Shown here: positions 34,691 through 61,178 of the stretch, piece by piece
How the letters are laid out: every line of letters begins with the position of its first letter
Numbering within the stretch: the stretch's first letter is position 1
DNA from: Rhodococcus sp. CH91
Lineage (GTDB): Bacteria; Actinomycetota; Actinomycetes; Mycobacteriales; Mycobacteriaceae
Assembly: GCF_022554085.1 (NCBI RefSeq)
Contig: NZ_JAKFYR010000014.1
Span: 1-64,000, forward strand
Length of the DNA: 64,000 nt
Reading direction: 5' to 3'
Made by a program: the position numbers and the translations under genes
The notes under the pieces: generated by a model
Told to the model about the DNA's origin: nothing
Databases searched by the model: none
What the model saw: only the letters and a program-made list of their open reading frames with translations

Positions 34691-34875
34691 GGTCGTGACA
34701 CTATCCAAAATGATCTTCGTGGGCTTGTCATCGAGCCACCCCGTCTCGCTCCGCAACGGCCGCGCGCACGGCGTCGAATGGGACCGGGTCCGGGCATGTC
34801 CGTCACGACTTCTAAGGTGGACTTACCCGTTTCGGTCGACGGGTGGCGGACGTCCGCAGGGTGAGAGGAGCAGGT

Positions 34876-37800
34876 GTGGAGCCGAAGGCGGGCGAACCCG
34901 AATTGAGGGATCGCGTGCAACGGCTGCTCGCCTTCCTGGCCGAGCTCGTGAAAGCCCGCAGCGCGCCCGTCCGCATCGTCGACAAACACCGTGCCGTGAT
35001 GTCCCTCGAGGCAGGAAACCTCGGTGCCGGGCTCAGGGCCGACGCCACCGCGGGTGACGTCATCCTTCGTGCGCGGCGCGTCCGGCTGGAAGACCCGCCG
35101 CGCCCGCCCGCACCGGTCGCGGAGTACGTGCAGGGAGACATCGGCAACTCCGCCGTCGAACCCGCATTCCGCCCGGAGACACCCGACACCGTCGACGGCC
35201 TCGAAGCCTGGCTCACGGAGTGGCGGGCCTGGGCGAGCGTCGACCGTGAGCGGCAGGCCGCGTCACAGCTGTACAGCTTCCTGCAGCGGGCCATGCTCGA
35301 GCTCGAAGACCAGCCGGAGTCGCTGGAACTCGTCGTCGCCTCGGGCCTGCTGCAGCTCTCGGAGGGTGTCGCGGGCGCACGCGTGCGCACACACCTGATC
35401 ACCCAGTCCGCTCGCGTCGAGCGGCTCGGCGACTCCGGCGACGTGGTGGTCCGGCTGAATCCCGACGCTGGCCCGGCGCTGGAAGACACCCTGCTCCTCA
35501 CCGGCCTGGACATTTTCGACCCCGCGAACACCCGCGACCTGCACGAGTCCCTCCCGACCCAGGTCGCCTCACCCCTCGATCCCGCCGCCCGGGGTTTCCT
35601 GAAGGGCTGGGGCGAGCGTGCGCTGACGGTACGCGTCGACCTCGTCGACCGGGCGGACGAAGCATCGTCACCCGACGCCTTCCTCACACCCTCACCGGCG
35701 CTCGTACTGCGCAAGCGCAGCGCCCATGCACTCATCGAGTACTACCACCGGATGACCGAGGCCGCTGCCGACGCGTCGAATCCGGTGCCGCTCGGTCTCG
35801 CGCAGCTCGTCGAACCCATCGAACCGGCCGACCGCGTCGCCTGGCTCGATCGGATCGGCAAGCCGTCCACCTCCTTCACCGGCGACCTCCTGTTCCCGTT
35901 GCCCGCGAACGAGGAGCAGCGCGACATCGTCGACCGGCTCGCCGGCGACAGCGGAGTGGTCGTCGAAGGACCGCCGGGCACGGGCAAGACCCACACGATC
36001 GCCAACATCGTGGCCGCGCTTCTCGCGCGCGGCCAGCGCGTGCTGGTCACCAGTGAGAAGGCCCAGGCGCTGCGGGTTCTCCGCGAGAAGCTTCCGCCCG
36101 AGCTGCGGGAGCTGTGCGTCGCGGTGAGCGACCCGGTCCACGGGGGCGCCGCAGAACTCACGCGCAGTGTCAGCGAGATCGCCACCCGCAAAGCGCAATT
36201 CAACGTGCGCCGCACAGCGCAGCGCATCGACGAGATCGCCACGCAACGCGACGACGCGCTGAACCGCCGGTCGACACTGATGGAGCAGATCCGGCAGGCC
36301 CGGGCGGACGAAGCGGTCGTCCATCCCGAGGTCGCCGCCGGATACGGGGGCACAGCCGCATCGATCGTCCGGCGCGTGCGTGCGGAGGAAGCCAAGTACG
36401 GGTGGCTTCCCGCGCCCCTCCTCACCGACGCCCCGCCGCTGACCGTCCAGGAACTCGTCACCCTCCACGGGCTGCATCAGCGATCGAGTGTCGAGCGGGC
36501 ACGCCGCCGGCACCAGCTCTTCCCGGACCTGTCCCTGCCCGACCAGAGAGAACTCGAGTACGCCTGCGCCGCGGTCGCACAGGCACCCGCGGATTTGTCG
36601 GGCAGCGACACGCACGGGGTGCTGCGGATCCTCGAGGGCGCACCCCTCGATGCACTCGCCCGCATCCGCGATCTGTGCGAACAACTGCAAGGCGCCCTCG
36701 AGGATGCCGAGCGCCTCGATGCGCGGATGCGACGCGTGACCGACGACGTCCTGTCGGGGAAGGCCCAGCACCTGTGGGGCAAGACGGCCGAACTCGCCGA
36801 TCTCGTGCAGGCCGCGCAGGACGCCGATCGCGTGGTCGGTGCCAGTACCGTGGTGGCGCCGGTGACGGGCGGCCTCGCGTTCGAGGCGTACGACGCGCTG
36901 GCCCGCAAGCTCGAGGCGGGGGACACCTGGCGCAGCGGCTTCTCCCGATTCCGGAGAAGTGACGAGCAATCCGCGGTCGAGGCGCTCGGTGAACCCGCGA
37001 CCGTCGACGGCGTCCCGGCCACCACCGCCCGTACGGCCCGCATCGTGGCCGAGCACCTCCGTGCGCTCGAGGCGATCCGGGTGGTGGGGATCGTTCTCCG
37101 CGATCTCGGTATCGACATCGCGCTCGACGAGTCGCGCAGCCGGGCCGTCGGAGCCCTCGCCTTCATCGACCGTGACCGCGGCGTCGTCGACAATCTCGTT
37201 GCACGGGTGAGCGACGTCGAGACCGCGCTCCGTGAGATCCACCCCGGTGCCCCGCGCATCACGAGTATCGAACAGGCACGGTCCGTCGCGGAGTCGGCCC
37301 GCGTGATCGCCGCGGCCGGCACCGCGGAAGCCAGCAAGAGCTGGCTCGAATCCATCGGGATGTACATCCGGAGTCAGATCGCCGGGGGAGCCTCGCCCGA
37401 AGGACGCGCGCTGGCACGTGCCTTCCACGAGGCAGACTTCGACGCCATCAACACCGCCCTGGACGCGTGGGACCGGGCAGTCGGGGAGCAGCGCGAGGAA
37501 CTCGACCTCGTCGCCCTGCACGCACGTCTGACCACCGCGGCACCCGGCCTCGCCCAGGCCATCGCGGAAAACCCGTTGAGCCTGGCATGGCCCGTCCGTC
37601 TCGCGGACATCGAGGAAGCGTGGGCCTGGCGCCGCGCAGACGACTGGGTGCGGCGCTTCCACGAACGCAGTGACGACGGGCAGTTCGAACGCGACCTCGA
37701 CGCGGTCGAGAAGGACATCACGCGCCTCACGACGCTGCTCGTCGAGGAGAAGGCGTGGAGCGCGTGCCTCGAACGCACGACCGCCGAGCAGGTCCAGGCG

Positions 37801-39300
37801 CTCCATTCCTACCGCGATCATGTCGCGAGCATCGGTAAGGGCACCGGGCGGTACGCGGAGCGCTACCGGGCGGCCGCCCGCGAGGCCATGCAGGTCGCGC
37901 AGGGGGCGGTGCCGGCCTGGGTGATGCCCCTACAGCAGGTGCTGTCGTCGATACCGCCCGAACCGAATTCGTTCGACGTCGTCATCGTCGACGAGGCGAG
38001 CCAGGTCGACATCAGCAGTCTGTTCCTGCTGTGGCTGGCGCCGCGCGTGATCGTCGTCGGCGACGACAAGCAGTGTGCACCGAGTGCGGTGTCGCTGGGC
38101 GCGCTCGACGGTGTCTTCAGCCGCCTCGATTCGTATCTGCCCGACATTCCGAACTACCTGCGCGACAGTTTCACTCCGCGGTCGAGCCTGTTCTCGTTGC
38201 TGCGATCGAGATTCGGGAGCATCATCCGGCTGCGGGAACACTTCCGGTCGATGCCGGAGATCATTGCGTGGTCCAGCGACCACTTCTACGCAGACGACCC
38301 GCTGGTTCCCATGCGGCAGTACGGATCCGACCGCCTGCCACCCCTGCGCACCACTCTCGTCGAGGACGGCGCCGTCACCGGCCAGAACGCGACGTTGACG
38401 AACCACGCCGAGGCCCACGCCCTCGTCGACACTCTCGTGAAGTGCGTCCAGGATCCTGCCTACGAGGGCAAGACCTTCGGCGTGGTCGTCCTGCAAGGCC
38501 AGTCGCAGGTGGACGTCATCCAGAACGCACTGCTCGACCGCCTCACCCCGGATCAGTGGGAGCAGCGCAGGCTCCGCGTCGGCACACCCCCGGATTTCCA
38601 GGGTGACGAGCGGAACGTGGTGTTCCTGTCGATGGTCGTCGCGCCAGGGCAGAACATCGCCGCCATGACGCGAACCGAGTATCAGCGACGGTTCAACGTG
38701 GCGGCCTCGCGTGCTCAGGACCAGCTGTGGCTGTTCCATTCGAGGACCGTCGACACGCTGCGACGAACCGACCTGCGGTATTCGCTGCTCACCCATATGC
38801 AGTCGACATCTCCGAATCCCGCCGAGCCGATGCCCGAAGGCGTGACACGCGACGAGCGGCACGAAGCGTTCGACAATCTCTTCCAGCAGGGAGTCTTCCT
38901 CGACATCGTCGCCCGCGGATACCACGTGAACCCGCGCGTCGAGGTGAACGGCCACTTCATCGACCTGGTGGTGACCGGTGCGGCAGGAAAACTGGCTGTC
39001 GAATGCGACGACGAACGCTGGCACACCGATCCGGACCGTCAGCGCGCCGACCTCGAGCGCGAACGCGAGCTGCACCGGAGCGGATGGAAGTTCTGGCGAG
39101 TCCGGGAATCGGAGTACTACCTCGACCCGGCTGCGGCGCTGGCCGGGCTGTGGGACGAGCTGGAACGGCGGGGGATCACGGCAGACCGTATGGCTGCGCC
39201 TGTGCTCGAATCGGGCGGGTCGTCGATCGAATACCGGAGGAATGGCAGCCCGGACGAGCGTGCCGTCGAGTCCGGGGGACAGGCCGCGATACTCCCCTGA
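34876..39300 (+). CDS. SF1 helicase fused to a C-terminal Vsr-like nuclease (Dna2/UPF1-type)
   Basis: Very large protein of 1474 aa. The N-terminal about 320 residues are unassigned. The motor begins at Walker A GPPGTGKT (365-372), motif Ia VLVTSEKAQAL follows, and a long helical insertion separates it from Walker B VDEASQVD (D1039) and VGDDKQCAPS. Motif VI is VAASRAQDQLW. The C-terminal about 130 residues resemble Vsr/PD-(D/E)xK nucleases: NGHFIDLVV, LAVECDDERWHTD (E1376), then ERELHRSGWKFWRV. Expected to unwind and cut DNA. GTG 34876 has GAGAGGAG upstream and matches the start of the truncated copy at 49810. Ter-linked loci often carry such helicase-nucleases. Confidence 0.86.
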   Translation: MEPKAGEPELRDRVQRLLAFLAELVKARSAPVRIVDKHRAVMSLEAGNLGAGLRADATAGDVILRARRVRLEDPPRPPAPVAEYVQGDIGNSAVEPAFRPETPDTVDGLEAWLTEWRAWASVDRERQAASQLYSFLQRAMLELEDQPESLELVVASGLLQLSEGVAGARVRTHLITQSARVERLGDSGDVVVRLNPDAGPALEDTLLLTGLDIFDPANTRDLHESLPTQVASPLDPAARGFLKGWGERALTVRVDLVDRADEASSPDAFLTPSPALVLRKRSAHALIEYYHRMTEAAADASNPVPLGLAQLVEPIEPADRVAWLDRIGKPSTSFTGDLLFPLPANEEQRDIVDRLAGDSGVVVEGPPGTGKTHTIANIVAALLARGQRVLVTSEKAQALRVLREKLPPELRELCVAVSDPVHGGAAELTRSVSEIATRKAQFNVRRTAQRIDEIATQRDDALNRRSTLMEQIRQARADEAVVHPEVAAGYGGTAASIVRRVRAEEAKYGWLPAPLLTDAPPLTVQELVTLHGLHQRSSVERARRRHQLFPDLSLPDQRELEYACAAVAQAPADLSGSDTHGVLRILEGAPLDALARIRDLCEQLQGALEDAERLDARMRRVTDDVLSGKAQHLWGKTAELADLVQAAQDADRVVGASTVVAPVTGGLAFEAYDALARKLEAGDTWRSGFSRFRRSDEQSAVEALGEPATVDGVPATTARTARIVAEHLRALEAIRVVGIVLRDLGIDIALDESRSRAVGALAFIDRDRGVVDNLVARVSDVETALREIHPGAPRITSIEQARSVAESARVIAAAGTAEASKSWLESIGMYIRSQIAGGASPEGRALARAFHEADFDAINTALDAWDRAVGEQREELDLVALHARLTTAAPGLAQAIAENPLSLAWPVRLADIEEAWAWRRADDWVRRFHERSDDGQFERDLDAVEKDITRLTTLLVEEKAWSACLERTTAEQVQALHSYRDHVASIGKGTGRYAERYRAAAREAMQVAQGAVPAWVMPLQQVLSSIPPEPNSFDVVIVDEASQVDISSLFLLWLAPRVIVVGDDKQCAPSAVSLGALDGVFSRLDSYLPDIPNYLRDSFTPRSSLFSLLRSRFGSIIRLREHFRSMPEIIAWSSDHFYADDPLVPMRQYGSDRLPPLRTTLVEDGAVTGQNATLTNHAEAHALVDTLVKCVQDPAYEGKTFGVVVLQGQSQVDVIQNALLDRLTPDQWEQRRLRVGTPPDFQGDERNVVFLSMVVAPGQNIAAMTRTEYQRRFNVAASRAQDQLWLFHSRTVDTLRRTDLRYSLLTHMQSTSPNPAEPMPEGVTRDERHEAFDNLFQQGVFLDIVARGYHVNPRVEVNGHFIDLVVTGAAGKLAVECDDERWHTDPDRQRADLERERELHRSGWKFWRVRESEYYLDPAAALAGLWDELERRGITADRMAAPVLESGGSSIEYRRNGSPDERAVESGGQAAILP

Positions 39301-39557: not shown

Positions 39558-40029
39558 CGTATTTGCGGAACATCCACGAACTTTATCACCTCGGAATTCT
39601 CGACAGGACTGGCGTCATCGCCCGTCTGATCGCCCCGGGTGATGTGTGACCGACAAGATCGAATTTGTCGGCCGATGCGCTCCCTGTGAATTCGAGTTCG
39701 TCGCTAGCCGCCAAACCAATTGCAGTCGCCTTGCCGACTCGAAGATGTATCGCTCGTCCATCGAGCCCATCACAGTCTCCCTGACAATCGGCGACGAGCA
39801 CATCGATTCGATGATCGATATGGCTACGGCACCGATCGATCGCCGGGGTACCACCTCCCGAGGAGGAGGGGCGCGCAACACCTTGTTGGGGCGGGGCCGC
39901 CAACGTTCTGAGCATGGTGGCGCGCGGCGGAAGTGCCACCGATGTTGTCCGTAACTCTAATGGGCCATCGGCCGATACGTCTGTGTGCCCGTCTCGGACG
40001 GGCGTGTTCTCGTAACAAGGAGGCAAGTG
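39558..40029. other. Intergenic region before the TerY operon
   Basis: About 470 bp without a gene I can support. A GTG-started frame of 102 codons at 39646-39954 exists but has no ribosome binding site and ends in arginine-rich sequence. The 10-bp palindrome ATCGGCCGAT (39967-39976) and an AAGGAGG at 40017-40023 belong to the leader of the TerY operon. Confidence 0.5.
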
Positions 40030-40755
40030 GTGTCGAACATGAACGTGCAGGTCGAACAGGCTGCTCTGGCGCCGTTCTACCTGGTGTTCGACGTGTCGTA
40101 CTCGATGGCGGACGAGATGCCGGCTCTCAATCAAGCTCTTCGAGATCTGAAGAACGAGATGCTGAAAAGCCCGATCCTGGCCGACATCGCCCGTGTCTCC
40201 CTGATCAGCTTCAGCACCGACGCGCGTGTGGTCATTCCGATGATGGATCTCGCTCAGGACGAGCGGATCGGACGCGGTGACCTGTTGGAGGAGGAAGGCG
40301 CGACGTCCTATGCGGAAGCTTTCCAGACTCTGAAGGACCAAATCCAACGAGATCTTCCGTTGCTCAAGGCGGAGTCCGGTGGCGCCGTCTATCGGCCCAT
40401 GGTGTTCTTCGTGACGGACGGTCACCCGACCGACGATGACCACGAATGGCGCCGGGCCTTTCAGGATCTGACGACGGCCAAGCCGTTTCCGAACATCATT
40501 CCCTTCGGCTTCGGTGATGCGAACGGTGAGATCCTGAAGGAGATCACGTTCCCCAAGAAGCGCGGAGAGAGCTACTACTTCATCGCCCGTCAGGGATTGG
40601 GACGCGCCGAAGCCATGGCTGCGATCGCCAAGATCGTCGTTCAGTCCGTTGTGAGTTCGACCCAGTCGGCGGCAGACGGAATGCCGCGCGTGAGCTTGGA
40701 AAAGGCCGGGACAGAGCATGTTCTCCAGCAGGCCCCCGCTTGGGACATGGTGTGA
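40030..40755 (+). CDS. TerY-like von Willebrand factor A (vWA) protein
   Basis: Cytosolic vWA protein of 241 aa, a single MIDAS domain. Metal-ion motif DVSYS gives D21, S23, S25; T92 (EGATSYAEAF) and D130 (FFVTDGHPTDD) complete the site. It is the TerY/YegL type that joins a PP2C phosphatase and a kinase in the TerY-P triad (compare E. coli yegL-yegK-yegI). The GTG at 40030 has AAGGAGG 6 bases upstream; a GTG one codon earlier is possible. It is the first gene of an operon running to 46047, and its stop overlaps the next start (GTGTGAGC). It probably acts as a metal-dependent scaffold or sensor for the phosphatase and kinase. Confidence 0.9.
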   Translation: MSNMNVQVEQAALAPFYLVFDVSYSMADEMPALNQALRDLKNEMLKSPILADIARVSLISFSTDARVVIPMMDLAQDERIGRGDLLEEEGATSYAEAFQTLKDQIQRDLPLLKAESGGAVYRPMVFFVTDGHPTDDDHEWRRAFQDLTTAKPFPNIIPFGFGDANGEILKEITFPKKRGESYYFIARQGLGRAEAMAAIAKIVVQSVVSSTQSAADGMPRVSLEKAGTEHVLQQAPAWDMV

Positions 40756-41687
40756 GCAACGTTGTGCGAGGGAACTCGCATGAGCACGGGACGATCGATC
40801 TCGAGCATCCTGAGCCGTACACGGTAGGTGACCCGGGGCGCGCATACTCCGAGATCGGAGGCGGGGTGCCGTTTCGCTCGGTGATGCCGCCGGATTCGAT
40901 GTGCGACGCGTTCGATTGCTTCGGATGGTCGCTCAGGGCGGCGTCGGTACGCGGACTCATGCATCGCAGTGACGGATCGCCTCGTCAAGATGCGTACGCG
41001 GTGCGGTACTCGCCGGATACCGATCGCTTCGCCGTCGCCGTATGTGACGGCGTCGGTAGTGCTCCGCAGTCTCACGTCGCCGCGGACGCAGCCGCGAATT
41101 GCCTGGTCGATCGCGCAATGGATGGTGCGATAGCGAGCGACGACGAGTGGTGGACCGAGACGTTCCAGGTTGCGTCCGAGGCTGTCACGGTCGCTGCCGA
41201 GAAACTAGGGGTGTCGGATGCGTCGGCACCCAGAGTTCGTGGCGTCATGGCAACGACAGCGATCCTGATCGTCGTGGACGAGGTGTCGGTTTCCCGCTCG
41301 TGGACGGTGCGCTACGCGGGCATCGGCGACAGCTCCTTGTGGCTGACGGACGTATCCACGGACGACGAGACGGCATGGATTCCCGTCCTCGGAGGCAAGG
41401 CCGCTGCAGAAGACGTTGCCACCAACCGAACGTCGGCTCTGCCGCTGCGCGACAGTACACCCGTGCGACCGGGGCAGTTCACTCTGCTCGGGGGACAGCT
41501 GCTTCTCGCATGCACGGATGGTGTCGGTGACGCGTTCGGAGCGGGAGACGGCGAGGTCGCCCGGGCGCTGAAGCAGTCATGGATGAAGCCGCCGACCGCA
41601 TTGAACTTCGCAGCTCAGGTGTCCTTCGGAAGGAGGAGACTTCTTGATGACCGAACCGGCGTCGCACTCTGGGCCCCCACAGGTTAG
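40752..41687 (+). CDS. PP2C-family serine/threonine phosphatase of the TerY-P triad
   Basis: Metal-dependent phosphatase of 311 aa. Motifs are D80 (SPRQDAYAV), the VAVCDGVGSAP loop (D99, G100), RGVMATTAILIVV, YAGIGDSSLWL, LLACTDGVGDAF (D256) and the terminal DDRTGVALW (D300), so both metal-binding aspartate sets are present. It should remove phosphate from Ser/Thr of targets of the kinase encoded later in the operon. The GTG at 40752 overlaps the vWA stop by 4 bp. Its 3' end overlaps the next gene by 41 bp. The first about 50 residues form an extension before the catalytic core. Confidence 0.88.
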   Translation: MSNVVRGNSHEHGTIDLEHPEPYTVGDPGRAYSEIGGGVPFRSVMPPDSMCDAFDCFGWSLRAASVRGLMHRSDGSPRQDAYAVRYSPDTDRFAVAVCDGVGSAPQSHVAADAAANCLVDRAMDGAIASDDEWWTETFQVASEAVTVAAEKLGVSDASAPRVRGVMATTAILIVVDEVSVSRSWTVRYAGIGDSSLWLTDVSTDDETAWIPVLGGKAAAEDVATNRTSALPLRDSTPVRPGQFTLLGGQLLLACTDGVGDAFGAGDGEVARALKQSWMKPPTALNFAAQVSFGRRRLLDDRTGVALWAPTG

Positions 41688-42306
41688 GGAATCCGGGCTC
41701 GAGTCGCGGTTCCAGGATGCCTTCAGAGGCACCTTCTTCGACTCGGAGAAGGCATGCGTCGTCGTGGTGGCATGCATTCCGGTACTGGCCATGGGGGCGG
41801 TCGGAGGAATCCTCTGGCGTCCACTGGGGGTGATCGGATTGCTGTGGGGTGCCTATCTGTTCCGGTTCTTCCACCGTGAGGTTCGGTCGGCTGTCGCAGT
41901 GATGAAGCGCGACGTCGAACGTTCTCGTGGTGAGCGTAGCGGCCGTGTTCTGCTGGTTTGCCTACTGGCGGTGGCGATGTCGATTCCGTTGACACAGGTG
42001 TTCTTCGCGAACGACCTGAGGGCGATGGCGGCTCCGACCGTTGCAGCAGTGGATGCGGACACGAATGATCTGGACACAGCCATCCCGAAGGCGATCTACG
42101 GTTCGGCTCCGAGTTCGCCTTCGTACGGTCCTTGCGAAACGATCCAACGCTTCACCACTACTTCTGTTGCATGGCCGTGCTACTCGGCTGTCGGTTATCT
42201 GCGTCTGTGGCAGATGTCGTCGACTTTCGCCATGATGGCCTGCATATCGCTCTTGGTCGTCGGATTCCCCTCCGCACTGCTATGGCATGCCAGGTCTCGA
42301 CGATGA
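41647..42306 (+). CDS. Four-helix membrane protein of the TerY-P operon
   Basis: Membrane protein of 219 aa. Two close hydrophobic segments (about 38-80, CVVVVACIPVLAMGAVGGIL and PLGVIGLLWGAYLFRF) are followed by a basic stretch (EVRSAVAVMKRDVERSRGERSGR), a third at about 101-117 and a fourth near the C-terminus (MACISLLVVGFPSALL). The loop between helices three and four (about 120-185) holds two cysteines. No family is recognised. AGGAGGAG precedes the TTG/ATG starts; I use ATG 41647, and TTG 41644 is equally possible. The gene overlaps the phosphatase by 41 bp, so the product is translated in step with it. Confidence 0.75.
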   Translation: MTEPASHSGPPQVRESGLESRFQDAFRGTFFDSEKACVVVVACIPVLAMGAVGGILWRPLGVIGLLWGAYLFRFFHREVRSAVAVMKRDVERSRGERSGRVLLVCLLAVAMSIPLTQVFFANDLRAMAAPTVAAVDADTNDLDTAIPKAIYGSAPSSPSYGPCETIQRFTTTSVAWPCYSAVGYLRLWQMSSTFAMMACISLLVVGFPSALLWHARSRR

Positions 42307-42387
42307 GTCGAAGCATGCAGTGCTCATCATCGACTCCTCGTACCTGATGGTTCGAGAAGCAATCTCGCTGTTCTGAACGGAAATCGC

Positions 42388-43920
42388 ATGAGTCCTTTCT
42401 CCCTGTTCCTCGCACGACTTGCCGGCGCGCGAATCGATGTCCTGCGGCAGCTACCGGGACAGATTCCCAAGCAAGTCGCGATGGGCGCTGTTCTGTTGAC
42501 CACCGCTTTATTCGCAGCCATTTCTGCTGCGTACGCCCTCAACATCACCGGCGTTGCGAATAATTGGCTCCTTGCTCTCGTTGCGGGATTGGCGTGGGGG
42601 CTCGCGATCCTCAATCTCGACCGAATGCTTGTTCTGGGGCTTTCGCAAGAACGAAGTTGGAAGAGGTTGGTGGGATTGGCAGCACCTCGTGTGGTGCTGG
42701 CGTTCATCATCGGAGTTGTTATCTCGACTCCGCTGATGCTCAAGGTGTTCGAATCCGAAATCGAAGCTCAGCTGAACAAGAACATTCTCGCGGCGCAGGA
42801 ACAACTTCGATCCGACCTGAACAATTCCACCGCTTCTGCCGACCTTACGGCGGCAGAAGCGGAGTTGGCAGAGCTGCGTGCCCTGATCAATGCCGGTCCC
42901 TCGGCGGACCCGGCAGCCAATCCGAAGATTCAATCCGTGCAGACCGAAATCGACGCACTGAACGAACAGGCGGTCGAGCAGAAAGCCGATTACGACCGCC
43001 TCCAGGGTCAGGCCATCGCTGAGGAAGAAGGTAGCGGTGGCACCGGCATAGCCGGCTGTGCCGCAATGTGTGTGGAGAAGAAGCGTCTTGCGAACGAAGC
43101 CAAAGCTCGCTGGGAGGAGACGCTCCGAGAGATCCAGACCAAGGAGGACGACAAGGCGCGAGTGGCGACCGAACTCGAGGGCACTCTCCTGGAGGAGAGC
43201 GAGCGCCGGATCGCAGACGCCGAGGTCGAGCTTCCCATCGTCGAGCAGACCGTAGCGCAGCTTCGGGAGCAAATCTCGTCGGCCCAGGACACCGGTTACC
43301 AGCTCGAGCAAGCGAACCAGGGCATCATCGCTCGCCTCAAGGCCTTGAACGACCTTTCGGATGGGGACGGAACGGCGGCGGCGGCCCACCGAGCAGTCAC
43401 TCTTCTGTTCATGTGTATCGAACTGCTTCCGGTGATCTTCAAGGTTCTTACGAATCTAGGAAGGCCGACCGCTTACGACGAGGTACTCACTAAGACAGAG
43501 GACGTCGAAGTGTCGGCAGCGACGGCCGATATCGACGCCAAGCGTGAGCGGGACAAGCTCCGTACGGACGCTCAGATGGAGGCCGAGAAGGACCGCATCG
43601 ACAAGCAGCAAGCAGCGGTGCTGAAGATCAACGACGCGGTGGTCGCCCACCAGGTCGACGTGATCGACGCTGCGCTCGAGCGTTGGACCGACCACGCGAA
43701 GGCAACTGCGTCGGAGAAGTTGAACAGCTGGGCCGCGACACTCGGTGGGACCGGAACCATGAGGATGCCGCCGAGCGGTACGCCTCCGCGTCCGACTGCC
43801 GCGTCGGTCTCCCTCGACAAGAGCGGCGCGGGAAACGGTGAGTATGGACGGCCTGTACCGCGAGGCGGCACTGCTGCCAGAACATTGGTGGACCCGCTGC
43901 CCGATCCGAGCAGGATCTGA
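42388..43920 (+). CDS. DUF4407 membrane protein with long coiled coil
   Basis: Protein of 510 aa. Three membrane helices are at about 30-118 (KQVAMGAVLLTTALFAAISA; NNWLLALVAGLAWGLAIL; VVLAFIIGVVISTPLML). A coiled-coil region of about 200 residues rich in Ala, Glu, Gln and Lys follows, then another hydrophobic helix (AVTLLFMCIELLPVIFKVL, near 332-350) and a Lys/Glu-rich then Pro-rich C-terminus. This is the DUF4407 layout seen in Ter-associated loci. It probably forms the membrane platform of the triad. The ATG at 42388 lies 81 bp after the previous stop. Its molecular activity is unknown. Confidence 0.85.
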   Translation: MSPFSLFLARLAGARIDVLRQLPGQIPKQVAMGAVLLTTALFAAISAAYALNITGVANNWLLALVAGLAWGLAILNLDRMLVLGLSQERSWKRLVGLAAPRVVLAFIIGVVISTPLMLKVFESEIEAQLNKNILAAQEQLRSDLNNSTASADLTAAEAELAELRALINAGPSADPAANPKIQSVQTEIDALNEQAVEQKADYDRLQGQAIAEEEGSGGTGIAGCAAMCVEKKRLANEAKARWEETLREIQTKEDDKARVATELEGTLLEESERRIADAEVELPIVEQTVAQLREQISSAQDTGYQLEQANQGIIARLKALNDLSDGDGTAAAAHRAVTLLFMCIELLPVIFKVLTNLGRPTAYDEVLTKTEDVEVSAATADIDAKRERDKLRTDAQMEAEKDRIDKQQAAVLKINDAVVAHQVDVIDAALERWTDHAKATASEKLNSWAATLGGTGTMRMPPSGTPPRPTAASVSLDKSGAGNGEYGRPVPRGGTAARTLVDPLPDPSRI

Positions 43921-43932
43921 AAGGCGTAGCAC

Positions 43933-44529
43933 GTGTCCGATCAGTCGTTCGACATCGATGTCGATCCAGTGCTGCGTACCGACCTCGTCCTAGATCTTCC
44001 GGGTGACGATTGGAACCCTGCCGTTGTCGTCCCGGCGCTGACTGCATTGTCCGACCGCATGCCGTCCCAACCGCATCTCGACGGCGTCTTCCGTCTCGTG
44101 GTCCTGAGAGGTGGTCGACTTGTGTTCGACAGTTCCCACCAGCCACTGGAGATGGGCTCTGGCCCCGATACGATCTTGCGAGGAACGGTTCCGCACAGCG
44201 GTCGGAACGAACTGAGCGAGTCACATGCCGGAATGACCTTGGTGGTTGCGTCTGCCGGAACGATCGAGAAGGAAAGTGTCCGACGGTCTCCCTGGCCGGT
44301 TCTCCTCTGGCTTGTCGGACAGGATGCGAACGAGGTCTACTTTCGAGTTCACCGAGCGCTCGGACCTATGCGGACCGTCGCGGATCCCTCAGACGCATCC
44401 GACCGGCTAACCCTCGTCTGTAGCCGCTTCCTGAACGAGGTCGCGACGGCAGATCAACCCGACGTGACCCGATGGATCGACGACCGTGTCAGTCCGATCA
44501 CAGAGGGAATGGGCTATGCGGCCGGTTGA
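43933..44529 (+). CDS. Conserved hypothetical protein of the TerY-P operon
   Basis: Soluble protein of 198 aa with no signal peptide, membrane helix or known motif. The N-terminus is acidic (SFDIDVDPVLRTDLVLDL), then an alternation of beta-like segments (GVFRLVVLRGGRLVFDSS; HAGMTLVVASAGTIEKE) and a C-terminal helix-rich part with DRLTLVCSRFLNEV. I do not assign a family. The GTG at 43933 lies 12 bp behind the DUF4407 stop and the kinase follows 45 bp later, so it belongs to the operon. It could be an adaptor for the membrane proteins or for the kinase. Confidence 0.7.
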   Translation: MSDQSFDIDVDPVLRTDLVLDLPGDDWNPAVVVPALTALSDRMPSQPHLDGVFRLVVLRGGRLVFDSSHQPLEMGSGPDTILRGTVPHSGRNELSESHAGMTLVVASAGTIEKESVRRSPWPVLLWLVGQDANEVYFRVHRALGPMRTVADPSDASDRLTLVCSRFLNEVATADQPDVTRWIDDRVSPITEGMGYAAG

Positions 44530-44574
44530 TTCCACTGAGTCAGACGGTAGGAGGATCCGGAGGAGGGGTGTGTC

Positions 44575-46047
44575 GTGCCGATCGACAGAGCAAGTCTGAC
44601 GGTTCACCAGGAACTCGGTTCGGGTGGATTCGGCACGGTCTACGAGGTAGACACTCCGAATTCCCTCTTCTCGGAAAAGACATGCGCGTTCAAGGAGTTC
44701 AAGTCCCCGGGAAACGCTGAGATCCAGAACCTGCGCGTGCTCATCGCACACAGAGCTGCGATGTCTCAGGAGGATCGCGAGGTCCTCGACCGGTTCACGA
44801 CGTGGCCACGCGAGGTCGTGACGAATGGTCGTGACGTCGTCGGCTTTCTGATGCGCATCGTTCCGCAGGACTTCATGGAAGCCTCGATCGCACAGGTCGA
44901 ACGAACGACGTCGGTCATGCGAAGCATCGACTGGTTGGCAAACCCTGTACATGCCAGGAAGTCCGGAGCCTCCCTCGTCGTCGAGGCAGAGGATATCAAG
45001 ACCCGGCTGCGCTACTGCGCTTGGCTCTCCCGCGTCTTCCACCACCTGCATCGGAACGGGATGGTCTACGGTGACCTCAGCCTGACGAACGTGTTGTACA
45101 GCGACTCGCGTGACAACCCCGTCATGCTGATCGACACGGATCCCGTCCGGGTGGAGTCGAAATCTCCGTCGCTGGCACAGGCCACCTCCCCTGGGATGCG
45201 TCCGCCGGAGGCCAGGGGAGCGAACGCAGCGCGCAAGCAGGACGTCGAGACGGATCGTTTCAAGCTTGCCGTGTTGTTGTACAACGTGCTCGGTGCATCG
45301 ATGCGTATCGATCCGAAGTTGTCTGCGGTTCAGGACAAGATCGACTCCACGGGCGTGCAGATGTTCGCGGCGGCTCTGGGCAGCGACCGGAACCGACGAC
45401 CTTCGGCCGAAGAGTGGTACCGGTACTTCTACGCTCGGTACACCGCGCTCATCGAGTTTCCGAAGATCGCCGGCGTGCGTGTGGAACCCGCCCACGGACT
45501 CGCAGGCCAGTCGGTCACCGTTCGATGGCAGGTCCAGGGACAGGAAGCACTGGTGCTGCATACGCCGTGGGGCACCGTTCACGATCTGGAAGTCAGCGCC
45601 CCTGATTCGCTCCAGGTGACTCTTCAGAATTCGGGACAGTTCAGGCTCGTCGCATCGAATTCGAATGGTGTGACAGAAATGCTCAGTGACGTTGTGCACG
45701 TATTCACGCCGCCCCGGATCAAATTCGTGAATGTGCCTGCGCTGCAGGATGTCAGTCGAGTTGTAACAGGGATCGATATCGAGCCTCTGAGTCAAATGCT
45801 CGAACCCGAGCGCGATGTCGAGTGGGTCGACGACCTGCTACGCCAGGTGACGCCCCCACAGCTTCCCGAGGTGGTAGGCGACGCGTCTCTCCAAGTCCCC
45901 GATCTCGGATCGATGATGCTCTCGGCGGATGGCTTGTCGGGTGCGCTGACGGACGCGCTGAACGTGGCGGATCGAGAGGTCGGTCGGGATCCGGTGCGTA
46001 GGTCTGCGGCCCTGGACATCATTCGGTTCCTCTGGACACCACGGTGA
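44575..46047 (+). CDS. TerY-P protein kinase with Ig-like domain
   Basis: Kinase of 490 aa. The glycine loop is GSGGFGTVYEV (15-25) and the VAIK-type lysine is K40 in CAFKEFK. The catalytic loop is GMVYGDLSLTNVLY (D167, N172) with Tyr replacing the usual His/Arg, and the magnesium loop is LIDTD (D187), a DFG variant. This matches the YegI-like kinase of the TerY-P triad. Residues about 300-385 look like an Ig-like beta sandwich (VRVEPAHGLAGQSVTVRWQV; LQVTLQNSGQFRLVASNSNG). The C-terminal about 90 residues are acidic. The GTG follows GGAGGAGGGG and the operon ends here, facing the convergent TerD gene. Targets are unknown; the vWA protein and PP2C are obvious candidates. Confidence 0.85.
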   Translation: MPIDRASLTVHQELGSGGFGTVYEVDTPNSLFSEKTCAFKEFKSPGNAEIQNLRVLIAHRAAMSQEDREVLDRFTTWPREVVTNGRDVVGFLMRIVPQDFMEASIAQVERTTSVMRSIDWLANPVHARKSGASLVVEAEDIKTRLRYCAWLSRVFHHLHRNGMVYGDLSLTNVLYSDSRDNPVMLIDTDPVRVESKSPSLAQATSPGMRPPEARGANAARKQDVETDRFKLAVLLYNVLGASMRIDPKLSAVQDKIDSTGVQMFAAALGSDRNRRPSAEEWYRYFYARYTALIEFPKIAGVRVEPAHGLAGQSVTVRWQVQGQEALVLHTPWGTVHDLEVSAPDSLQVTLQNSGQFRLVASNSNGVTEMLSDVVHVFTPPRIKFVNVPALQDVSRVVTGIDIEPLSQMLEPERDVEWVDDLLRQVTPPQLPEVVGDASLQVPDLGSMMLSADGLSGALTDALNVADREVGRDPVRRSAALDIIRFLWTPR

Positions 46048-46120
46048 GTCCCGCCGTAACCGAGAGAGTTCGGCAACAGCGGGGCCGGATGGGTCTGCGG
46101 GAGTCTCCTCTTGAGGCCTG

Positions 46121-47347
46121 CTACTTGCTACCGGGTGTCCAGCGCATCCTCCACTTGTACGCCTTGTCGAGATGTGACTGATCACCCTTGATGTAGCGGA
46201 CTTCGCGTTTGACACTGATCTCGCCGTTCTTGCTTTCCAGCAATGCGATCGCGCACATGGGCGCACGGTTGTCGCCGGAGTCGAGACGGACTTCGATATC
46301 CGATCCGGAGGTTCGGTAGAGCGTGACCACTCCGTCCGCGGCCGCCCAGTTCGGCACGCCTTCATATATGTACGCGAAAATGAGGATTCGTTTGAAGGCG
46401 CCCGGGTTCGACAGGTCGATGTACAGGTTCTCGCCACCGGCGATGGATCCGGTTCGGTCGTCACCGTCGAGTTCGATGAACGGGTAGCTGTATCGCGATC
46501 CGAATGCTCCACCGAGGGCCTGGATGACGCCCTTGCTTCCGTCCGCCATTTCGTACAGGCAACCGAGATCGAGGTCGATGCCATTGCTGCCGGCAAGGCG
46601 ACCGAAGAATCCCTTACCTGAACCTCTCGTGGTCCAGTTCAGGTTCACCCGCATGAGGCCTTGCTCCTCACCGGCTTTCACGAGGCTCACCGAGGGAGTG
46701 TTCTTGTCTAGCGTGATCTTGGAGAGAGTGACCGGCGGCGCTGCCGGTGTCGGCACGCGTGGCTGGGACGGCGGGACTCCGCGTCGCTCGGTTGTCGGCT
46801 CCGGTGACGGGGCTGGGGGAGGAGCGGGCGTCGGCGCGGGGGGTGCCGGCTGGCTGACGTCTACACCGTAATTCGTCGCAAGAGCCGAAAGACCGGTATT
46901 CCACCCCTGCGAGACATTGCGGACCTTCCACGTCCCGTTGCGGCGATAGACCTCCATCAGAATCGCTGCCCGTTCGGAACTCAATCCGTTTGCGGGTGCC
47001 TGGACAACCAGGCCGGTCGATTGTTCGAGAGTGACGCCCAGATCGGGGACGGCCGCCAAAGTCCCATGCATGCTCTCGTCCAGAGCCACCGCGATCGACA
47101 GGGTGTGGATGTGTGCGGGCATAAGCGAGAGGTCCAACGAAATCCGGTCGGCGCCGATCAACCGGACCGCGCCTTCGGGAGACTTCGGTTGGTTGAAGAA
47201 GATGAAGTCGTCGTCGTTTCGTACGCGCTGGTTCTCCGTCAATTGGAAGGCCATCAAATCGACTGTGCCCTGGCGTGCGCCAGACACCGACAGGATTGCG
47301 GTGCCGTCGTGGATGACCGTATTCGCCCCGGGGGGAAGTGAAGGCAT
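46121..47347 (-). CDS. Double-TerD domain protein
   Basis: Protein of 408 aa. The first TerD domain (about 10-165) carries NDDDFIFFNQPKSPEG and AAILMEVYRRNGTWKV followed by GLSALATNYGVDV, closely like the TerD tails of the exonuclease fusions. A Pro/Ala-rich linker (about 166-206) follows. The second domain (about 207-408) is a more divergent TerD/CABP-like fold with NGIDLDLGCLYEM and GGENLYIDL. TerD domains bind calcium through acidic loops such as DLDLGC. The ATG at 47347 lies beyond a strong terminator of the upstream TerC gene, so it may have its own promoter. It is convergent with the kinase operon (73 bp). Confidence 0.85.
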   Translation of the reverse strand: MPSLPPGANTVIHDGTAILSVSGARQGTVDLMAFQLTENQRVRNDDDFIFFNQPKSPEGAVRLIGADRISLDLSLMPAHIHTLSIAVALDESMHGTLAAVPDLGVTLEQSTGLVVQAPANGLSSERAAILMEVYRRNGTWKVRNVSQGWNTGLSALATNYGVDVSQPAPPAPTPAPPPAPSPEPTTERRGVPPSQPRVPTPAAPPVTLSKITLDKNTPSVSLVKAGEEQGLMRVNLNWTTRGSGKGFFGRLAGSNGIDLDLGCLYEMADGSKGVIQALGGAFGSRYSYPFIELDGDDRTGSIAGGENLYIDLSNPGAFKRILIFAYIYEGVPNWAAADGVVTLYRTSGSDIEVRLDSGDNRAPMCAIALLESKNGEISVKREVRYIKGDQSHLDKAYKWRMRWTPGSK

Positions 47348-47389
47348 GGCGTGTCCGGCCCTACGGCCGACTCCTTTCGGCGGAGATGC

Positions 47390-47422
47390 GTGTGGGCAGC
47401 CGGACCAGCCGGCTGCCCACAC
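47390..47422 (-). terminator. Terminator between DUF475/TerC and double-TerD genes
   Basis: Perfect 14-bp stem GTGTGGGCAGCCGG / CCGGCTGCCCACAC with a 5-base loop, 10 bp after the DUF475 stop in the direction of transcription. It would separate the TerD-TerC unit from the double-TerD gene or attenuate read-through into it. Confidence 0.85.
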
Positions 47423-47432
47423 ATGGAACTGA

Positions 47433-48563
47433 TCAGGCGTTGACGGTGACCGTCTCGGGCTGCGGATCTTCATCCGAGTCCGTGGTCGCCTCGTCGTCGG
47501 GATTGTTCTTGTTCCGGATGATGCTGGTCGCCAGGGCTGCGAGGATCAGGAACACGCCGGTCAGGCCGGTGACGATCTCACTGACATGGTGGCCGATCGA
47601 GTACAGCAGGATCAATGCCAGCGCACCGATCGCCCAGTGAGCTCCATGCTCGAGGTAGACATACTCGGCGAGCGTGCCCTTGCGGACGAGGTAGACGGTG
47701 ATCGAGCGGACGAACATCGCGCCGATGAAGCCCAGGCCGAGAGCGATGATGATCGGGTCGGAGGTGACAGCGAACGCGCCGATCACTCCGTCGAAGGAGA
47801 ACGACGCATCCAGCACCTCGAGGTAGAGGAACAGGAAGAAGCCGGCCTTACCGGTTGCCTTCGCGAGGTCACTGGGACCACCGGACGATTCCTCGCCCTC
47901 CTCGTCGACGTTGAACAGTTCGCCGAGGCCGTTGACCAGAATATAGGTGATCATGCCGAGCGTGCCGGCGATCATCACCGTGGATGACTTGCCTTCGGGG
48001 GCGAGCAGCAGTGCGGTGAGAACGAGGAGCCCGGATGCCACAACCACCGAGAGCTGGTCGAGCTTGCCGATCCGTTCCAGTGGGCGTTCGATCCAGGACA
48101 ACCAGGTGATGTCCTTCTCCTCGAAGATGAAGCCCAGGAACAGCATCAGCAGGAACATGCCACCGAACGACGCGATCTGTGGGTGAGCATCGGTGATCAG
48201 CGTTTCGTAGCTTGCGCGACCGTCGGGGAAGTAGGCCGCACCGTCGGCAGGCGGGTTGAGCGCCAGGTCCAGGGCTGCAACGGGACCGAGTCCCGAGGCA
48301 ACCCAGACGATGAGCAGCGGGAACACGAGTCGCATGCCGAAGACGGCAATGAGAATGCCGATGGTGAGGAAGATCTTCTGCCAGAACTCACTCATTCTTC
48401 GCAGCACCGTTGCGTTGATGACCGCGTTGTCGAAGGAGAGTGAGACCTCGAGTACGCCGAGAATGGCGGCCAGTAGCAGGGCTTGAGGACCGCCGTAGAG
48501 GAAAGCGACGACCAGGGCTACAACGGTGACGGCGAAAGATGCGCCGAAGATGCGCATAACCAC
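47433..48563 (-). CDS. DUF475/TerC-family membrane protein
   Basis: Integral membrane protein of 376 aa with about eight or nine hydrophobic segments. The TerC signature pair is present: LEVSLSFDNAVINATV near residue 40 and LEVLDASFSFDGVIGAFAVT near 250, whose acidic residues are thought to bind or conduct a cation. Acidic loops (NVDEEGEESSGG and the DDEATTDSDEDPQPE tail) are consistent with metal handling. TerC-family proteins work with TerD in tellurite/metal stress. The GTG at 48563 sits 8 bases after GAAAGG; ATG 48557 is the alternative. It follows the TerD gene by 87 bp in the same direction. Confidence 0.88.
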   Translation of the reverse strand: MVMRIFGASFAVTVVALVVAFLYGGPQALLLAAILGVLEVSLSFDNAVINATVLRRMSEFWQKIFLTIGILIAVFGMRLVFPLLIVWVASGLGPVAALDLALNPPADGAAYFPDGRASYETLITDAHPQIASFGGMFLLMLFLGFIFEEKDITWLSWIERPLERIGKLDQLSVVVASGLLVLTALLLAPEGKSSTVMIAGTLGMITYILVNGLGELFNVDEEGEESSGGPSDLAKATGKAGFFLFLYLEVLDASFSFDGVIGAFAVTSDPIIIALGLGFIGAMFVRSITVYLVRKGTLAEYVYLEHGAHWAIGALALILLYSIGHHVSEIVTGLTGVFLILAALATSIIRNKNNPDDEATTDSDEDPQPETVTVNA

Positions 48564-48650
48564 GGACGTGGCCTTTCTCTATGGGTGCGGACGGGTCGGA
48601 CGCTCTTCCTTCGAGCTTCCCGACCGTTCCCGCGGACGGAACTGACGAAA

Positions 48651-49229
48651 TCAGGCGACGTTGACGCCGTAGTCGAGGGCGATCCCGCGAAGACCGGATG
48701 CGTAACCCTGGCCGACGGCGCGGAACTTCCACTCCGCGTTGTGGCGGTAGACCTCACCGAAGATCATCGCGGTCTCGGTGGAGGCATCTTCCGTCAGGTC
48801 GTAGCGAGCCAGCTCGACGCCCGTGACACGGTCGATGATTCGGATGTAGGCGTTGCGAACATGGCCGAAGGACTGGCCGCGAACGTCCGCGTCGTAGATC
48901 GAGACAGCGAAGAAGATGTTCGTCACCGTGGGCGGGAGTGCTGCGAGATCGACGTGGATGGACTCGTCATCGCCGTCTCCGTCACCGGTCAGGTTGTCGC
49001 CAGTGTGCTCGACCAGGCCGTCCGGCGAGGAGAGATTGCCGTAGAAGACGAAGTGCTTGTCCGAAAGGACTTTGTAGCTGGGCCCGGTGATCAGCGCCGA
49101 CGCATCGAGGTCGTAGGGCGCACCGGTGGTGGTGCGCTCGTCCCATCCCAGACCGACCGTGATGGTCGTAAGGTTGTCGGTCGCCTTGGAGAGGGAGACA
49201 TTGCCGCCCTTGGCAAGTGAGACGCTCAT
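48651..49229 (-). CDS. terD: TerD-family calcium-binding stress protein
   Basis: Canonical single-domain TerD of 192 aa. MSVSLAKGGNVSLSKAT is the classic start, followed by TITVGLGWDERTTTG, the DLDASALI calcium site, FVFYGNLSSPDGLVEHTGDNLTGDGDGDDE, and the ending GEVYRHNAEWKFRAVGQGYASGL. It should bind Ca2+ in the cytosol and act with TerC in the metal/tellurite or phage stress response. The ATG at 49229 follows GAAAGGA. It is first gene of the leftward unit, with TerC next. The symbol denotes the family. Confidence 0.93.
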   Translation of the reverse strand: MSVSLAKGGNVSLSKATDNLTTITVGLGWDERTTTGAPYDLDASALITGPSYKVLSDKHFVFYGNLSSPDGLVEHTGDNLTGDGDGDDESIHVDLAALPPTVTNIFFAVSIYDADVRGQSFGHVRNAYIRIIDRVTGVELARYDLTEDASTETAMIFGEVYRHNAEWKFRAVGQGYASGLRGIALDYGVNVA

Positions 49230-49809
49230 ATGGATCCTTTCGAGTTTCTGCGTGGAAGTAGGAGTGGTCCGTGCCTCGGCGCGGATCGCGCTAGAGGTGT
49301 CGGCCGGTCATGGAGCGGCCGATGAAGTCGACGAAACGGAGGGGAGTTCTTTCGATATAGTGCGAGCACTCAGACAGGGCTGTATCTGGGGTCGTGAGGG
49401 TACTTTCGTCCACGTTGTGTGGCTGAACTCCTTCTGCGGGTGCGACTTCTGGGATCGCGACGCAAACAACTGCACGGTGCTGTGCGTCACCTACTCCAGC
49501 CCCCGACAGACTGTTGGGCGACAACATAGCAGGTGCAACTAAATGTCCGAAAGTGCCCATCGGTCCGATTCCGGCGGATCGTTTCTGTTACCAGTAGTAC
49601 TGGGACGGGTACGGACCGAGTTGCTGGGCGGGTGTAACAATCCCCGTGCCGAATACAGATGTACTCGGCGATGGAGTTTGAGCACGCGGGGGGCAGAGAC
49701 GGCGCTTGGGGAAGGGTCCATGGACCGCTGTGTCATAGCCATTGTTTATGTTCGTCGGCGTTCCGTGCGTTTTCGTACGGAGTAACTTCATCGCGCAATT
49801 GGGGTGGTT
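49230..49809. other. 580-bp intergenic region between terD and the truncated helicase
   Basis: No supported gene. It must hold the terD promoter (leftward) and that of the helicase copy (rightward). On the minus strand a frame ends at 49588 with a Gln/Pro/Tyr-rich tail (AQQLGPYPSQYYW) and might be a remnant of another gene, but it has no start or ribosome binding site. No repeat or RNA element is recognised. Confidence 0.5.
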
Positions 49810-51603
49810 GTGGATTCGAGGGAGAGCGATCCTGAGCTGAAGGATCGTGTTCAACGTTTGCTCGCATTCTTGTCCGAGCTCGTGAAGGCGCGAAGCGCCC
49901 CCGTTCGAATCATCGACAAGCACCGCGCTGTGATCGCTCTCGACGAAGGCAATCTGGATGTAGCTCTCAGTACCGATGCGTCCGCCGGCGACGTCGTGCT
50001 CCGGGCGCGTCGCGTGCACTTGGAAGACCCACCCCGGGTGCCGGCTGCAGTCACTCCCTGGATCCGCGGTTCGATTGCGGAGTCGACAACCGAACCCACG
50101 CTTGATTCCGGTGCTCCCGACACTAGGGAGTTCGACGAATGGCTGACGAAATGGCGTGCCTGGGCAGAGGTCGATCGTGAGCGGCGACCGGCCTGGCACC
50201 TCTACGCGTTCCTCCAGCGCGCGATGCTCGACCTCGAGGCGCAACCGGAGTCCCTGGAACTCGTGATCGCGTCAGGGCTGCTCCAACTCTCGGCGGATGT
50301 AGCGGGCGAACAGGTGCGAACGCACCTCATCACGCAGTCGACGCTGGTGGAACGCGACTCGGCCTCTGGCGACCTCCTCGTGAGACTCGATTCCGAATCC
50401 GCTCCGGCGCTCGAAGACACTCAGTTGCTGACCGGGCTCGACGTCTTCGATTCGTCGGGTACTCGGAACCTGCACGAATCGCTGGCTGCGCGAGTGAGCT
50501 CACTTGTGGACCCTGCCGCACGGATCTTCCTCAAAGAGTGGTCCGACCGAGCCCTGACTACCCGCGTCGAGGTCGTCGACCGACCCGACGAAGCAGCCTC
50601 GCACGATCGTCTGCTCACGCCGTCGCCCTCGCTGGTTCTGCGCAAGCGCGGTGCCTATGCACTGATCGAGTACTACGACCGCATGACGGCAGCCGCGGCG
50701 GACGAGGCAACGGCGGTTCCCCTCGGGCTGGCACAGCTGGTCGAGGCGATCGAACCCGCCGATCGGGTCGCGTGGCTCGACAGGGCCGGTACGTCGTCCT
50801 CACTGCTTACTGACGATCCGCTGTTTCCGCTTCCTGCCAACCAGGAGCAACGCGACATCATCGATCGGCTCGCAGGCGACAGCGGTGTCGTCGTCGAGGG
50901 CCCACCCGGAACAGGGAAGACTCATACGATCGCCAACCTTGTCTCGGCGTTGTTGGCACGTGGTCAGCGCGTCCTGGTCACCAGCGAGAAGGCCCAGGCA
51001 CTGAGGGTCCTTCGCGACAAGCTGCCTTCGGAACTGCAGGAGCTCTGTGTTTCGGTCACGGACGCCGGCCGCGGGGGGTCGGCCGAACTGAACCGCAGCG
51101 TCAGCGAGATCGCGACCCGCAAGGCACAGTTCGATCCACGCCGAACAGCGGCGCGTATCGACGAGGTGGCGCAACGACGCGACACGGCACTGAGTCGTCG
51201 GGCGATGCTGACGGAACGCATCCGTCAGGCTCGTGCGTCCGAGACGCTCGCGCACGCTGATGTCGCGCCGGGGTATGCGGGCACGCCGGCGGAGATCGTC
51301 CGTAAGGTCACCGCGCAGAGCGCCAACCACGACTGGCTGCGTGGCTCCCTCACGACGGATACTCCACCACTCTCTCCGGAAGAGTTCCAGACACTGCTCG
51401 CCTTGTACGAACGGTGCGAAGCTGTTCGTAACGGTCCGGGTTCGGGAGGTGTCCCCACTTCGGGACTGCTTCGGATGCTGGAGGGCGCTGCTCCCGACGT
51501 TCTCGAACGGATCCGCGAGCAGTGCGACCATCTGCAGCGCGCGCTGATCGATGTGGAAGGTCTCGAACCCGCATTCCGGAACCTCGCCGACGCAGTAGGC
51601 TAG
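49810..51603 (+). pseudogene. Truncated copy of the SF1 helicase (motor cut after Walker A region)
   Basis: A 597-aa frame clearly paralogous to the 1474-aa helicase at 34876: PELKDRVQRLLAFLSELVKA matches at the start and Walker A GPPGTGKT (364-371) and VLVTSEKAQAL are intact. It ends at a TAG at 51601 where the parent continues; Walker B, motifs III-VI and the Vsr-like nuclease are all missing, so it cannot be a working helicase. GTG 49810 aligns with the parent's start; GTG 49804 is possible. Homology to the parent fades at the stop, and lower-GC sequence follows, so this looks like the left junction of an inserted island. A short ATP-binding product could still be made. Confidence 0.75.
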
Positions 51604-55823: not shown

Positions 55824-55921
55824 TGGGACCCTTCCAGAGCGCTGAAGTTATCTTTGGGAAGACATCATTGCAGGCTCTACAGACGAGCTCGGCAGGGCAT
55901 ATGGGAATGAAGGGGGGTCGC

Positions 55922-56626: not shown

Positions 56627-56795
56627 GCGTGCACCAGGGATCCATGTCCTAGGTGCCATCTAGACTCGCCGCTAGCGAGTTGGGCCGGGCGGCCCCCCTG
56701 GTTCCGTTCCGGTAGCTGGAGAGGCGGTGGCAGCGTCGAATTGTTGCTGCTGGGGTGGCGGCTCGTCCCGTATCCAGCACCTGGAAGGAGTATGC

Positions 56796-58115: not shown

Positions 58116-58135
58116 GCGGTGTAAGCTCGTCGAAG

Positions 58136-58615: not shown

Positions 58616-58818
58616 GCGACGAGCCGTGAGAGAGAAGCAGCGAGCAACTTCGTGGGCGCACCTGTCAAATTCGAGGGGTGAGAGCGCCGAGGATCCGGAT
58701 TTGAGCCGGTACGATACTGCGGTCCCAAGGTCCGGATGGCAGTGGGACTCGATGGTGGACGTTATCCTCGGAGATTGCGATCCTCCGGGTTCTGACGGTC
58801 GGGGAGGAAGGTAGCCGC

Positions 58819-60714: not shown

Positions 60715-61178
60715 ATATGGGTGACGCAAGGCAAAGGCGGGTCCAGCCATTCGATTGCTGAAACTCGTCGATGCTGAATTCTCGGCAAATTGAGGTGCGG
60801 GTGCGCAACGGTGATTCACAGTAGTGTATGAGCCTGTGAAATTGCCCTGGACCTCGTAGGCCAGCCTTGCGACATGAGCTATGCGGTGATCGATATGCCA
60901 TCTTCCCACGATTGACATCCGAAGGTCTCATGCCCAACGAATATACGAAACCGGCTGCGGGTCGTTCGGCTCAAATCGTCGAGATTGATCAGTCGAGTTG
61001 CCCACAACTCTTGGTAGTGGTACCCGTAGCAATTGATCTCTCGGGTTGCATGGACTCTTGGATATTTGAAGCGACGGCTCGATACAAGTCATCGTCGAGC
61101 CATGAGCCGAAGCTCAAGATCAAGCGGCGGCACTCGCTCAACATATTGCATGCAGACACTAAGATCATCGGTGTGGCT
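60715..61178. other. Region between TerD fusion and ScoMcrA-N-like gene
   Basis: About 460 bp with no separate gene I can support. The frame of the next gene stays open back to 60867, with an ATG at 60930 behind a GAAGG site, so its protein might be up to 83 residues longer. TAAGAT at 61160-61165 could be a -10 box for a near-leaderless mRNA starting at the GTG at 61179. Confidence 0.45.

Follow-up and report, generated by a model that had tools for sequence, protein, structure and literature searches.

A stretch of 64,000 nucleotides from Rhodococcus sp. CH91 (contig NZ_JAKFYR010000014.1, positions 1 to 64,000; the window below) carries nine genes in two convergent units within 39985-49229, according to open reading frame (ORF) calls and Pfam matches. 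Unit 1 (39985-46047, forward strand) encodes a vWA protein, a PP2C phosphatase, a small membrane protein that we call memb220, a DUF4407 protein, a 198-residue protein (unk198) and a YegI-like Ser/Thr kinase, and unit 2 (46121-49229, reverse strand) encodes TerD, a DUF475/TerC-family protein and a TerA-like protein. This content, order and convergent arrangement are as described in a sequence-only reading made earlier. Unit 1 is a variant of the TerY-P system that includes a membrane core, and the ter unit next to it is independent. According to the parts of the literature that deal with them, TerY-P triads have been linked to defence and tellurite resistance, are associated with restriction systems (PMC11090510, PMC4978471) and were reported to be active against T7-like phages (PMC7699616, on Gao 2020); TerD binds Ca2+ and the TerD domain contributes to calcium homeostasis in Streptomyces (PMC8123226); and TerC proteins of B. 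subtilis metalate exported and membrane enzymes (PMC12096827). We therefore favour, with about even confidence, the explanation that unit 1 is a membrane-anchored phosphorylation switch of the TerY-P type, serving defence or envelope stress more likely than tellurite resistance as such.

The vWA-PP2C-kinase triad is complete and is joined to two membrane proteins, as the sequence-only reading had it and as Pfam matches, motifs and hydropathy support. In all five aligned operons, the vWA protein kept the residues of its metal ion-dependent adhesion site (MIDAS; D-x-S-x-S as DVSxS, T and TDG) and the phosphatase kept its metal-site motifs RQD, CDGVGS, GDS, DGV and DDRT. The start of the vWA gene is uncertain, with a GTG at 40027 or nearby, giving 242 aa, being favoured by the gene caller. 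Alignment showed that the kinase retains the Lys, catalytic Asp, Asn and DFG-type Asp, the last of which is D187, the residue previously picked for a kinase-dead mutant. Named plasmid relatives of the kinase are YegI proteins with about 24% identity. Its conserved C-terminal domain, at about residues 300-400, is Ig-like as read by eye; no Pfam domain beyond the kinase was matched, no invariant Cys was found in the C-terminal half by alignment, and no transmembrane (TM) segment was found by hydropathy.

Membrane association, also part of the earlier reading, is predicted for both membrane proteins by hydropathy, and for the DUF4407 protein by charges as well. The first hydrophobic span of memb220 (residues 30-73) could hold two TM segments, and its predicted outward loop contains two Cys residues (164 and 179 of the 220-aa ORF, 155 and 170 in the alignment) present in 11 of 11 sequences; at E 0.01, neither Pfam nor NCBIfam gave a family for memb220. 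The DUF4407 protein is predicted to consist of TM1-3, an outward coiled coil of about 210 residues with C224 and C228, TM4 and a cytosolic helix. Its AlphaFold model had a pLDDT of 79 and a pTM of 0.41, and a fold search with this model of pTM 0.41 matched nothing at E <=0.001. Its Cys pair was considered as a mark of loci with memb220 and was dropped, since two Cys occur there in 20 of 20 proteins at differing positions. DUF4407 appears among the families that differ between mycobacterial groups in the portion of the published comparison that lists them. The remaining protein, unk198, had been called unknown, which holds in that it has no Pfam family; structure prediction gave it a vWA fold without MIDAS residues, and it is thus a predicted second, degenerate vWA. 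An unk198 profile matched none of 11 neighbour proteins of other families.

The nine-gene set is syntenic in R. ruber NBRC 15591 and Rhodococcus sp. HM1, with 62-98% protein identity (89% for DUF4407 of R. ruber NBRC 15591), so the grouping is not due to chance and the neighbours are conserved beyond this strain. Within the genus, DUF4407, and with it unit 1, occurred in 3 of 18 genomes. Kinase matches were found in 18 of 301 genomes of the family, 11 of them (own genome included) at E <1e-80, and memb220 in 14 of 401. Five of these 14 (the window, R. ruber, HM1, R. kyotonense and G220) have vWA and PP2C genes upstream; the others are five genomes of genus g24 (R. globerulus and its relatives), Prescottella subtropica, G286 with memb220, DUF4407 and only the C-terminal domain of the kinase, and G001 and G032 with memb220 and DUF4407 alone (the last three equated with loci L049, L051 and L050, respectively, by matching coordinates). 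The genes for memb220, DUF4407, unk198 and the kinase are co-inherited in one shared order in 11 loci of the family, with unk198 assigned solely by position in two of them (L032 and L036), and with a 170-aa gene intervening in L031 and a transposase-like ORF in L029. Outside the family, 7 of 17 DUF4407 loci (families f14, f15, f12 and f2) have the vWA, PP2C and kinase genes adjacent, among them the loci of the five top-scoring DUF4407 matches in f14.

The state of the kinase largely goes with the presence of the phosphatase. Among family loci, the catalytic residues of the kinase are intact in 5 of 5 with PP2C, and in the genome loci having a kinase domain and no PP2C, the Lys, Asn and DFG-type Asp are lost in 6 of 6 (five of g24 and one of Prescottella). 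Upstream of the g24 pseudokinases are genes for GAP1-N2/GAP1-M, a vWA-like protein (by eye, with no Pfam match), a DO-GTPase and a protein that ends in a TerD domain; the GAP1 and DO-GTPase assignments come from Pfam on one locus (L034), to which the other g24 loci were matched by similarity. The g24 and Prescottella pseudokinases may share a single origin, as judged from the tree. The kinase-domain loss in L049 is separate from theirs according to the tree, and in L049 and L124 the C-terminal domain accompanies DUF4407 without a kinase domain. We tentatively propose, at less than even confidence, that DUF4407 and memb220 make up a new receptor core of the actinobacterial envelope on which the switch can be exchanged: it would be TerY-P in some lineages and GAP1/DO-GTPase, with the pseudokinase as scaffold, in another, while elsewhere the kinase would be reduced to its C-terminal domain. 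If true, one sensing chassis would be served by two unrelated NTP-dependent switches, and this exchange on one receptor core is the aspect most worth testing. As a separate observation, genes for a MoxR-like ATPase (by eye), a DUF5682 protein and a vWA_CoxE protein converge on the pseudokinase operon of Prescottella (L030 4686-9198).

The two units occur separately, so the full architecture of the sequence-only reading stands in that all nine genes co-occur in three species, and falls in that G051, G068, R. kyotonense and G220 have one unit each. Full-length TerA-like orthologues (E <1e-200) were found in 5 of the 18 genus genomes, namely the three with unit 1 plus G051 and G068, and shorter matches to other ter genes in all 18. 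G051 and G068 have unit 2 and no DUF4407, memb220 or kinase, while unit 1 is present and unit 2 absent in R. kyotonense, in G220 and in those more distant loci that were read. It is unlikely, in our estimate, that the nine genes form a single calcium or metal stress module in which the TerY-P triad directly regulates the TerD, TerC and TerA-like proteins. Separate occurrence speaks against such regulation. Pointing toward it are the synteny in three species, the TerD domain encoded within the DUF4407/pseudokinase operon in 5 of 5 g24 loci, and a weak remnant resembling the kinase C-lobe in the matching convergent position of G068. This 83-aa piece (L112 17367-17618, between abh and the ter unit) reached 11.3 bits, whereas the highest score among 500 shuffles was 3.9, and lies among transposase-like pieces (by eye) at the site of unit 1.

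We likewise give little weight to two unrelated accessory cassettes inserted at a shared hot spot beside a helicase and functionally unlinked. The independent variation of the units would fit this, as would the lower G+C content, the aco and abh genes near the units in G068 and the window (with abh remnants in G186), and the helicases of 66-68% identity that adjoin unit 2 in genomes having it; the TerD domain inside the g24 operons argues against it, and so does R. kyotonense, where helicase homologues flank the kinase operon on each side and the stretch read has no ter unit. G+C content, taken in 2-kb steps, falls at about 38 kb from 64-71% in most steps (62% in one) to 58-63%, which is compatible with acquired DNA. 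An inseparable nine-gene module was rejected on the separate occurrence of the units.

The sequence-only reading had also drawn the helicase-nuclease at 34843-39300 and the exonuclease at 20422-24408 into the system. Both recur together in genus genomes without unit 1, including ones with neither unit, and we rejected them as island components. Helicases of the 74-85% identity type represented by the window's full-length copy occur in 15 of the 18 genus genomes, counting the window's own. In G123, G084, G098 and G051 they lie no more than about 25 kb from an RNase_T-BRCT-TerD gene, and these two genes are variably accompanied by aco, abh and a NERD helicase. A second type, 66-68% identical to that copy, is divergent from TerD in four of the five unit-2 genomes (G186, G166, G068 and G051), and in the fifth, the window itself, the TerD-divergent helicase is truncated. 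It is this shortened gene at 49804-51603, not the one at 34843-39300, that belongs with the ter unit. The truncated copy is 63% identical to the full-length one over residues 4-636, and relatives are about 1440 aa long. G186 and G068 carry only the 66-68% type, and G223 has fragments only. The full-length helicase remained below the curated NCBIfam cut-offs for Hhe and ProA (120.6 of 2000 and 166.8 of 1500 bits), and its best PADLOC match was the candidate PDC-S37 (E 1e-52). In unit 2, the protein formerly described as double-TerD does have a TerD domain, a single one by Pfam, followed by a Pro-rich linker and a C-terminal part of TerA type (47-49% identical to annotated TerA). Its start at 47347 was chosen by conservation over the ORF opening at 47473.

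Several known systems resemble parts of the locus. The E. coli YegI, YegK and YegL proteins, which we take to be the kinase, the PP2C and the vWA protein, respectively, offer the same three components, and YegI is the named relative found; the window differs in the identity of about 24%, the extra membrane core and a kinase without a TM segment. Unit 2 resembles tellurite-resistance ter operons in having TerD, DUF475/TerC and TerA-like proteins, and differs from them in that its TerC is of the DUF475 branch and that a helicase-nuclease and the kinase operon adjoin it; TerB, a ter operon component, had no Pfam match among the nine proteins. TerY-P likewise joins a vWA protein, a PP2C and a Ser/Thr kinase. 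No zinc ribbon or OB fold, as described for TerY-P kinases in the relevant part of PMC11090510, was recognised in the window kinase, whose conserved C-terminal domain is probably a different one, and the operon adds DUF4407, memb220 and the MIDAS-less vWA-fold protein. The same part of PMC11090510 also gives type III-A CoCoNuTs a second, degenerate vWA comparable to unk198; a CoCoNuT was rejected for the window, in which none of 30 proteins had a Pfam match to a McrB-type GTPase, McrC or HEPN. GAP1-N2/DO-GTPase systems that include a kinase, a PP2C and a vWA protein have been published, and the section of PMC7159879 on them describes an actinobacterial kinase with a beta-strand-rich domain, a PP2C and a stand-alone vWA in a membrane-proximal setting, similar to unit 1. 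That kinase is described there as catalytically active, whereas the five g24 loci have no PP2C and a pseudokinase. The same 30 window proteins gave no Pfam match to GAP1 or DO-GTPase, and such a system was rejected for the window, as was any named PADLOC system.

For a membrane-anchored TerY-P-type switch, we infer the following with respect to docking, sensing, signal direction, effector and defence purpose. DUF4407 and memb220 would form an envelope receptor with an outward coiled coil and a Cys-paired loop, on the cytosolic face of which the kinase would be docked by its own C-terminal domain together with the vWA protein that lacks MIDAS residues, and PP2C with the MIDAS vWA would hold the kinase off. 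An envelope cue such as phage attachment, DNA entry or envelope damage would shift this balance, and phosphorylation would activate an effector. The likeliest local partners in this Rhodococcus clade may be the TerD/TerC/TerA-like unit, in membrane metal or Ca2+ handling, and a helicase-nuclease. The calcium response and anti-phage role suggested in the sequence-only reading are plausible by analogy with the families and from context.

We count in favour of this switch the intact triad, the shared order of the core, the adjacency of DUF4407 and triad in 7 of 17 loci, the correlation of PP2C with kinase state, the patchy presence (3/18), the lower G+C content, the TerY-P phage report and a conflict context made up of GAP1/DO-GTPase genes and restriction-type genes, which lie near a copy on an R. 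opacus plasmid and downstream of the units in the window. Other observations weigh against it. In the R. opacus plasmid copy the kinase motifs are intact although 25 kb of sequence contained neither a vWA nor a PP2C gene, and DUF4407 is truncated; L095, which has PP2C, encodes a separate intact kinase as well as a pseudokinase with the C-terminal domain. The HM1 operon is interrupted at L029 12189-13754, where an ORF that looks by eye like a transposase separates memb220 from DUF4407, and it may thus be dispensable. The other 10 of the 17 loci outside the family have the C-terminal domain only (L124), a vWA (L131) or no part of the triad (8 loci), and the triad was found in 0 of 13 stretches from 12 of the 65 f16 genomes. 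DUF4407 was not found in the phage records or viral contigs searched. PADLOC had no family match for vWA, PP2C, memb220, DUF4407 or unk198, and only weak ones for the kinase (best mad6, E 4e-7; NCBIfam MADS6, 23.4 of 460 bits). Finally, linkage of the two units is limited to three genomes of one genus, and the units vary independently. We believe that the membrane core beside the triad, together with PP2C-less loci having a dead kinase, provides a tangible starting point for working out input and wiring, and that the separable ter unit cautions against treating nine genes as one machine.

Table 1. Features of the two units and adjoining helicases in the window
Feature	Position	Strand	Basis
Full-length SF1 helicase with MTES_1575 nuclease	34843..39300	+	Pfam
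Conserved block upstream of vWA operon	39944..40026	+	3-genome alignment
TerY/YegL-type vWA	39985..40755	+	VWA_2 PF13519, E 8e-9
PP2C phosphatase, YegK-like	40740/40752..41687	+	PP2C_2 PF13672, 2e-14
memb220, small membrane protein	41644..42306	+	Hydropathy; three hydrophobic spans
DUF4407 protein	42388..43920	+	PF14362, 1.3e-63
unk198, 198-aa predicted vWA-fold protein	43933..44529	+	Structure prediction; no Pfam
YegI-like Ser/Thr kinase	44575..46047	+	Pkinase PF00069, 5.5e-8
TerA-like protein	46121..47347	-	TerD domain, 2.7e-27; ORF opens at 47473
DUF475/TerC-family membrane protein	47433..48563	-	DUF475 2.3e-130, TerC 1.9e-14
TerD	48651..49229	-	PF02342, 1e-78
Divergent TerD/helicase intergenic region, conserved blocks	49230..49803		5-genome alignment
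Truncated SF1 helicase of ter unit	49804..51603	+	599 aa open, nuclease end missing

Rfam had no match near terC, and consensus promoters and terminators did not exceed their count in shuffles. Elsewhere in the window, a TPP riboswitch was matched at 14388-14479 (Rfam RF00059, 64.5 bits). A restriction-type cluster at 51744-61934 contains NOV_C, an SNF2 helicase, a DruM2-like C5 methylase, Vsr, RNase_T-TerD and a type IV restriction-like gene. RNase_T proteins with a C-terminal TerD domain are encoded at 20422-24408 and 58819-60714, one of them with BRCT, and the larger was also found in each of the four genus genomes examined, as well as in G068. Among other DUF4407/TerY-P loci, three have DA1-like genes, presumably of the zincin type (L031 8915-9427, L086 13224-13967 and L095 12339-12890). 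L086 also encodes, at 13969-14694, a 241-aa protein with no Pfam match that resembles a nucleotidyl cyclase domain by eye, and in L094 (5483-6950) two vWA matches in succession precede PP2C and the kinase.

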